Source: Minisyncoccota bacterium (GTDB lineage: Bacteria > Patescibacteriota > Minisyncoccia > Minisyncoccales > Minisyncoccaceae). From it: a stretch of 33,414 nt of DNA. Location: positions 1-33,414 of the forward strand of contig JAQUXE010000004.1 in assembly GCA_028692555.1 (NCBI GenBank), in the 5' to 3' direction. Under the pieces are notes generated by a model that made no database searches, had not been told where the DNA came from, and was given only the letters and a program-made list of their open reading frames with translations. Made by a program: the position numbers and the translations under genes. Each line of letters opens with the position of its first letter. Position 1 is the first letter of the stretch. Below, piece by piece: positions 3,811 to 4,074 of this stretch.

Positions 3811-3838
3811 AAAAAGCAACCCCTTAGGGCTTCTCTTG
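3811..3838 (-). terminator. Rho-independent terminator of the tRNA operon
   Basis: Immediately after tRNA-Asp the minus strand forms an outer GCAA/TTGC stem and an inner CCC/GGG stem with a TAAG loop, followed by a run of six T. The stem is interrupted by a bulge, so its strength is uncertain. Confidence 0.55.
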
Positions 3839-3912
3839 CGGACCCGACCGGACTCGAACCGGCAGTCTCCTCCGTGACAGGGAGGCGCGATAACCAATTT
3901 CGCTACGGGTCC
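3839..3912 (-). tRNA. tRNA-Asp(GTC)
   Basis: A complete 74-nt cloverleaf: acceptor GGACCCG/CGGGTCC with discriminator G73 (the normal Asp identity base), D-arm GCGA/TCGC, anticodon stem CCTCC/GGAGG with loop CTGTCAC (anticodon GTC), and T-arm with loop TTCGAGT. CCA is not encoded (CAA follows the discriminator), so a CCA-adding enzyme is needed. It is the last of three co-directional tRNAs, 6 nt after tRNA-Met. Asp identity elements (G73, GTC) are intact. Confidence 0.97.
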
Positions 3913-3918
3913 ATAATG

Positions 3919-3990
3919 TGCCAAAGATGGGAATCGAACCCATAACAACTCGCTTATGAAACGAGCGCTCTACCACTGAGCTACTCTGGC
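3919..3990 (-). tRNA. tRNA with CAT anticodon (elongator Met, or Ile2 after lysidine modification)
   Basis: A complete 72-nt cloverleaf: acceptor GCCAGAG/CTTTGGC (with a G-T pair), D-arm GCTC/GAGC with standard loop AGTGGTA, anticodon stem CTCGT/GCGAG with loop TTCATAA, T-arm ATGGG/CCCAT with standard loop TTCGATT, discriminator A73, CCA not encoded. C11:G24 and a paired first base separate it from the initiator next to it. Elongator Met and the CAU-reading tRNA-Ile2 cannot be told apart by eye. Confidence 0.93.
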
Positions 3991-4003: not shown

Positions 4004-4074
4004 TTGCGGTTCCTGGAATTGCACCAGGGTCTCCAGCTTATGAGACTGGCGAGGTACTACTCCTCCAAACCGCT
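4004..4074 (-). tRNA. Initiator tRNA-fMet(CAT) with unusual anticodon stem and T-loop
   Basis: A 71-nt cloverleaf with initiator hallmarks: position 1 (A) does not pair with A72, followed by 6 good pairs (GCGGTT/AACCGC), and the D-stem has the purine 11-pyrimidine 24 pair (A11:U24) typical of bacterial initiators. The anticodon stem is CCAGT/GCTGG with loop CTCATAA. The three consecutive G:C pairs at 29-31:39-41 are not conserved: they read A:U, G:C, U:G. The D-loop is only 7 nt (AGTAGTA), without the G18G19 doublet, and the T-loop is TGCAATT with G instead of U at position 55. CCA is not encoded. A promoter lies immediately upstream (4081-4108). Its folding is otherwise complete, so it is unlikely to be a pseudogene. 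Confidence 0.88.

Follow-up and report, generated by a model that had tools for sequence, protein, structure and literature searches.

The gene at 4004–4074 on the minus strand of the window, by which we mean the whole analysed stretch of 33,414 nucleotides (contig 17 of a source genome of 480,681 bases in 26 contigs, 94.8% complete), raises the question of whether a tRNA that departs both from the 3GC rule for initiators (PMC7949028) and from the canonical tRNA elbow can be the initiator of a cell. Residue 18 of the textbook elbow is intercalated between the fourth and fifth T-loop nucleotides, in contact with Psi55, which is described as "universally conserved" (PMC4810234).

The tRNA-Met(CAU) gene was detected by ARAGORN and by Rfam RF00005 (53.6 bits, E 5e-9), and by segment its sequence reads AGCGGUU UG GAGG AGUAGUA CCUC G CCAGU CUCAUAA GCUGG AGAC CCUGG UGCAAUU CCAGG AACCGCA A (Table 1). 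The parsed sequence contained the bacterial-initiator marks put forward in the original prediction, namely the CAU anticodon, the absence of a Watson-Crick pair at 1:72 (A1×A72) and A11:U24, together with G2:C71 and C3:G70. At 29–31:39–41 the three G:C pairs were replaced by A:U, G:C and U:G, exactly as had been read before, and G55 in the T-loop and the 7-nt D-loop (A14 G15 U16 A18 G19 U20 A21) were confirmed as well. The statement that this D-loop lacks G18G19 held for its first half: G18 is replaced by A, but G19, the partner of C56, is retained. A18 and G55 occupy the positions of the canonical G18-Psi55 contact, and all four bases of the canonical G19-C56 and U54-A58 contacts are present. 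Compared with E. coli tRNA-fMet, the tRNA shares CAU, 1×A72, G2:C71, C3:G70, A11:U24, G30:C40, the cloverleaf and G19-C56. It differs in having A29:U41 and U31:G39 where two of the G:C pairs would be, A18/G55 instead of G18/U55, a 7-nt D-loop and a 4-nt variable loop, and it is probably unformylated (no Fmt was found, see below). Single-strand folding gave a non-cloverleaf minimum, which is uninformative because modifications and tertiary contacts are left out of such a calculation.

Table 1. Features of the initiator tRNA gene and its cluster (window positions)
Feature	Positions	Strand	Details	Basis
Initiator tRNA gene (CAU)	4004..4074	(-)	71 nt, no encoded CCA	ARAGORN, Rfam, family conservation, R1 model
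Anticodon CAU	4040..4042	(-)		ARAGORN
D-loop AGUAGUA	4055..4061	(-)	A18 at 4058, G19 at 4057	Sequence and alignment
T-loop UGCAAUU	4017..4023	(-)	G55 at 4022	Sequence
Positions 29–31 (A, G, U)	4045..4047	(-)	5' side of the former 3GC triplet	Sequence, parsed alignment
Positions 39–41 (G, C, U)	4035..4037	(-)	3' side; A29:U41, G30:C40, U31:G39	Sequence
Elongator tRNA-Met (CAU)	3918..3990	(-)	Ordinary: G18, U55, G1:C72	ARAGORN, Rfam
tRNA-Asp (GUC)	3838..3912	(-)	Last in the fMet-Met-Asp cluster	ARAGORN, Rfam
Terminator-like hairpin and T run	3818..3831	(-)	Past the cluster	Weak: 1 found vs 0.5 expected

The initiator gene comes first in its tRNA cluster, followed by those for elongator Met and Asp. 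Translation genes lie on both sides: on one, two small ORFs that match no Pfam family separate the cluster from pheT and pheS; on the other, a 166-aa ORF, likewise with no Pfam match, separates it from gatA, gatC and gltX.

The source genome has 29 tRNAs above the Rfam cut-off, in which the neighbouring elongator tRNA-Met is the only other CAU tRNA; no second initiator was found among these 29 tRNAs, about 5% of the genome possibly being missing. An initiator covariance model, R1, built from 15 sequences including E. coli and B. subtilis tRNA-fMet, scored the initiator at 95.6 bits, compared with 50.8 bits for the tRNA ranking next in the genome. By BLAST, the initiator was recovered at 93–100% identity in 19 of 20 other genomes of the genus and family; G007, a family member that is 86% complete, gave no BLAST match and a weak covariance-model match (51.5 bits). 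Compensatory changes were seen in the D- and T-stems among relatives, and the four stems covaried across the class (230 cells altered on both sides vs 61 in shuffles). The conservation in 19 other family genomes indicates that the bases are not an assembly error, and the assembly-error and pseudogene readings were rejected on this conservation and on the stem covariation. Although its Rfam score lies below those of its neighbours, there is next to no chance that the gene is a pseudogene, an assembly error or a misclassified elongator tRNA, given the identical or near-identical copies in those relatives, the compensatory stem changes, its position as sole initiator candidate and its marks at 1:72 and 11:24. 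The original prediction thus withstood its own refutation test, which named a second canonical initiator and assembly errors. We infer from its sole candidacy that this tRNA binds the 30S P site and starts proteins, and that it would be the working and only initiator of a Paceibacteria (Patescibacteria) lineage. The genome also encodes a tRNA-Ile with a UAU anticodon (G000:C10:10249-10322) and no third CAU tRNA, so that AUA seems not to be read by a lysidine-modified CAU.

The comparison of positions 18 and 55 covered 102 distinct initiators, drawn from genomes at family, order, class and phylum level (Patescibacteria). The combination A18/G55 occurred in 52 and G18/U55 in 50, and mixed combinations in none. 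On an RpoB tree of 27 genomes, in which G033 is the sister of the family, the elbow state switched at least five times, and the sister genomes G022 and G029 differed at both positions. A57 accompanied G55 in all 52 cases, U55 occurring with either A57 or G57, and 51 of the 52 G55 initiators had a 7-nt D-loop. The same coupling was found beyond initiators: the 511 distinct tRNAs from the loci collected at that stage comprised 371 with G18/U55, 116 with A18/G55, none with A18/U55 and one with G18/G55. The source genome itself has 27 tRNAs with G18/U55 and two with A18/G55 (fMet and Cys); tRNA-Cys (G000:C25:773-844, L002) has the D-loop AAGCAGUAA and the T-loop UGCAAUU.

When named genomes were scanned with a pattern in which G55 was fixed and position 18 left free, at least 70 distinct G55 initiator-like tRNAs were obtained, and among the matches listed 69 had A18 and one had G18 (L156, Chthoniobacter, the single G18/G55 initiator among them). 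Matches listed from outside Patescibacteria (Brucella, Lautropia, Clostridium and uncultured Clostridia) lie next to genes for phage terminase, portal, primase or integrase. When IMG/VR was scanned with this pattern, 90 of 90 distinct G55 initiator-like tRNAs had A18. Non-Met tRNAs on the viral contigs, which were taken irrespective of their loop sequence, showed 428 G18/U55, 22 A18/G55, 2 G18/G55 and 1 A18/U55 (Fisher p = 4e-34, uncorrected for relatedness). None of eight phage tRNA-Met genes from a BLAST list showed A18/G55 (seven keep U55, and that of Serratia phage BF was unparsed); the evidence for phages therefore comes from prophage-like loci and from contigs in IMG/VR. The covariance-model alignment of related initiators bore out the covariation of 18 and 55, and near-perfect covariation, seen in the 102 initiators, in the 511 tRNAs and in the non-Met phage tRNAs, supports the previously suggested A18-G55 contact in place of G18-Psi55.

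Several single loci deviate in other ways. A contig of a Myxococcales MAG (L212) carries Met, Gly and Leu tRNAs that are all A18/G55, perhaps a phage tRNA array. Elongator tRNA-Met genes of other class members (L049, L052, L053, L088) combine C55 with G18 and have UCC T-loops, and the initiators L088 and L094 (G059, G090) have G8-G9 replacing U8 and odd D-arms.

In sequence, U54-G55-C56-A57-A58 (UGCAA) of the initiator matches the UGNRA T-loop class. The UGAAA T-loops of the FMN riboswitch take an A (A90 or A38) between their fourth and fifth nucleotides (PMC3764141). By analogy, the initiator elbow would be an alternative to G18-Psi55 built on a UGNRA-type T-loop, in which A18, not G18, would slot between A57 and A58 and touch G55; the covariation of the two bases is observed and the three-dimensional geometry is deduced. 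The likeness to the riboswitch loops thus lies in the U-G-N-R-A sequence and, presumably, in an A filling the gap between the fourth and fifth nucleotides; they differ in that the riboswitch T-loops dock riboswitch loops, whereas that of the initiator would form an elbow with the D-loop. Since G19-C56, the outer face of the textbook elbow (PMC4810234), is retained, this face should be unchanged.

The loss of the 3GC triplet, whose combination with an altered elbow had been called striking, proved to be real in this tRNA and not special to it: 86 of the 102 distinct phylum initiators are without the full triplet and 16 have it, indicating that 3GC is not a defining feature of initiators in this phylum. 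At 29–31:39–41, A:U, G:C, G:C was the most frequent combination (44/102), and U31:G39 was present in 22/102. Position 30:40, on the other hand, was G:C in all 102. In E. coli, pair 30:40 is contacted by A1339 of the 16S rRNA (type I A-minor) and pair 29:41 by G1338 (type II) (PMC11497404). As G30:C40 is never lost, it appears that the phylum initiators conserve the pair contacted by A1339, the other two being relaxed. G1338, A1339 and A790 are unchanged in the organism's own 16S rRNA, and altered 16S partner bases were rejected on these grounds. Docking in the P site would probably rest on G30:C40 and the 1×A72 mismatch, IF3 still being present (18/18 genomes). Mycoplasmas and rhizobia include initiators in which other pairs stand for one or two of these G:C pairs; like the tRNA studied here, they have an incomplete 3GC triplet and still function. 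We know of no A18/G55 elbow described for them. Many phage-encoded initiator-like tRNAs are likewise without the full triplet and some have A18/G55, but they are presumably accessory beside the host initiator, whereas here the tRNA is the sole initiator of the cell.

The lineage also seems to have given up formyl-methionine and Shine-Dalgarno (SD) signals. Methionyl-tRNA formyltransferase (Fmt, TIGR00460) was not found in any of the 16 family genomes tested, and 15 of them also yielded no peptide deformylase (Def, TIGR00079), G018 having a fragmentary match at a contig end. In 56 other order and class genomes, Fmt was matched in 41 and Def in 40, the two sets agreeing outside the family except for G023 (weak partial Fmt match only), and the presence of Fmt changed at least nine times on the RpoB tree. 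Incompleteness of MAGs can mimic gene absence, but it does not plausibly explain simultaneous absence in 15 or more relatives. At the 3' end of the organism's own 16S rRNA (G000:C16:1524-2991, L260), GGATCATTTATTTT was found instead of GGATCACCTCCTTT, so that the anti-Shine-Dalgarno (anti-SD) sequence CCUCC is gone. CCTCC was lost in all family genomes (6/6) and all other order genomes (4/4) with a readable 16S end, and kept in G109 and G049. Among 32 genes of the window, no SD-like motif (GGAG, GAGG or AGGA at −20 to −4) was found, against an expectation of 1.5. Every one of the 32 begins with ATG, 24 have A at −6 and 22 have T at −1; A at −6 and T at −1 may form a start-site signal. Judging from these sequences, the lineage likely starts its proteins with unformylated Met on SD-less mRNAs. 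Some genomes gave 16S matches in pieces or far longer than 1.5 kb (L273/L276 in G030, L267 in G024, L274/L277 in G058 and L272/L278 in G040), which suggests introns or insertions in the rRNA genes.

A connection between the anticodon stem and formylation is suggested by the 31:39 pair, which was other than G:C in 10 of 16 Fmt-lacking lineages vs 4 of 39 Fmt-bearing genomes (Fisher p = 1.6e-4, with genomes counted as independent). Tree-independent pairs pointed in the same direction (2.6 vs 0.5), at a number for which significance is unreachable. In E. coli, a 3GC-mutant initiator works when Fmt is low (PMC7949028). Under unformylated, SD-less initiation, the remainder of the triplet would be under weaker selection, the association being what speaks for it; a causal link between the relaxed stem and the lost formylation and SD signals is a plausible hypothesis, the association not being significant after tree correction. 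For the elbow, no strict link of A18/G55 with loss of TruB, Fmt or the anti-SD sequence was found in the compared genomes. G089 and G109 have A18/G55 despite having Fmt and TruB, showing that the swap is not a consequence of their loss.

These two genomes bear directly on the idea that A18-G55 was selected for folding without pseudouridine. As TruB cannot act on G55, the tRNA would keep its stability in settings where this enzyme is absent or in short supply, such as tiny genomes or phage bursts. TruB (TIGR00431) was not found in any of the eight tested order genomes, all of them A18/G55 (it is present in 5 of 7 others), and the swap is common in phage tRNAs. This explanation is nevertheless unlikely, because G089 and G109 combine TruB with A18/G55, G058 and G112 have U55 yet no TruB, and in the source genome 2 of 29 tRNAs are switched.

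Ordinary drift, in which initiators are loosely conserved and the changes of elbow and stem are neutral and unconnected with the initiation pathway, the elbow being kept merely as a pair, is a serious possibility that we nonetheless doubt. It would agree with the rarity of the full 3GC triplet throughout the phylum (16/102) and with the roughly half-and-half split between A18/G55 and G18/U55, each of which occurs both with and without Fmt. However, 18 and 55 never change singly and 30:40 is invariant in the 102 distinct initiators, which argues for selection on both sites, and the organism's own family is also without Fmt, Def and the anti-SD sequence.

We favour A18-G55 as a second heritable elbow that has traded places with G18-Psi55 many times over, both bases together, in Patescibacteria, phages and several tRNA types. 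The cell studied here would have it in its only initiator, with one 3GC pair, and would start proteins with neither formylation nor SD:anti-SD pairing; we consider this reading as a whole likely. That the observations as a whole are best explained by a sole initiator with an A18-G55 elbow, docking based on G30:C40 and unformylated, SD-less starts appears very probable. Partial loss of 3GC was already known, but an initiator tRNA with an alternative A18/G55 elbow is apparently undescribed: neither a mention of A18-G55 nor initiator tRNA joined with Patescibacteria was found in the literature searched, which mostly left subscription journals outside, so that an earlier description is possible.

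A 2025 survey regarded fmt as conserved among all bacterial species and two genomes without fmt and deformylase as probably incomplete (PMC12690207); for Patescibacteria, incompleteness as the explanation for the absence of Fmt and Def may be wrong. G18-Psi55 and the 3GC triplet are regarded as near-universal, and here the elbow pair is replaced wholesale. The paired swap at 18 and 55 recurs in many tiny bacteria and phages and, as it takes two bases (A18 and G55), raises the question of whether two elbow designs can stand in for each other. With the 3GC rule, formylation and the anti-SD sequence all relaxed across one family, these organisms offer a natural system for the minimal needs of an initiator, which apparently come down to G30:C40 and the 1:72 mismatch.
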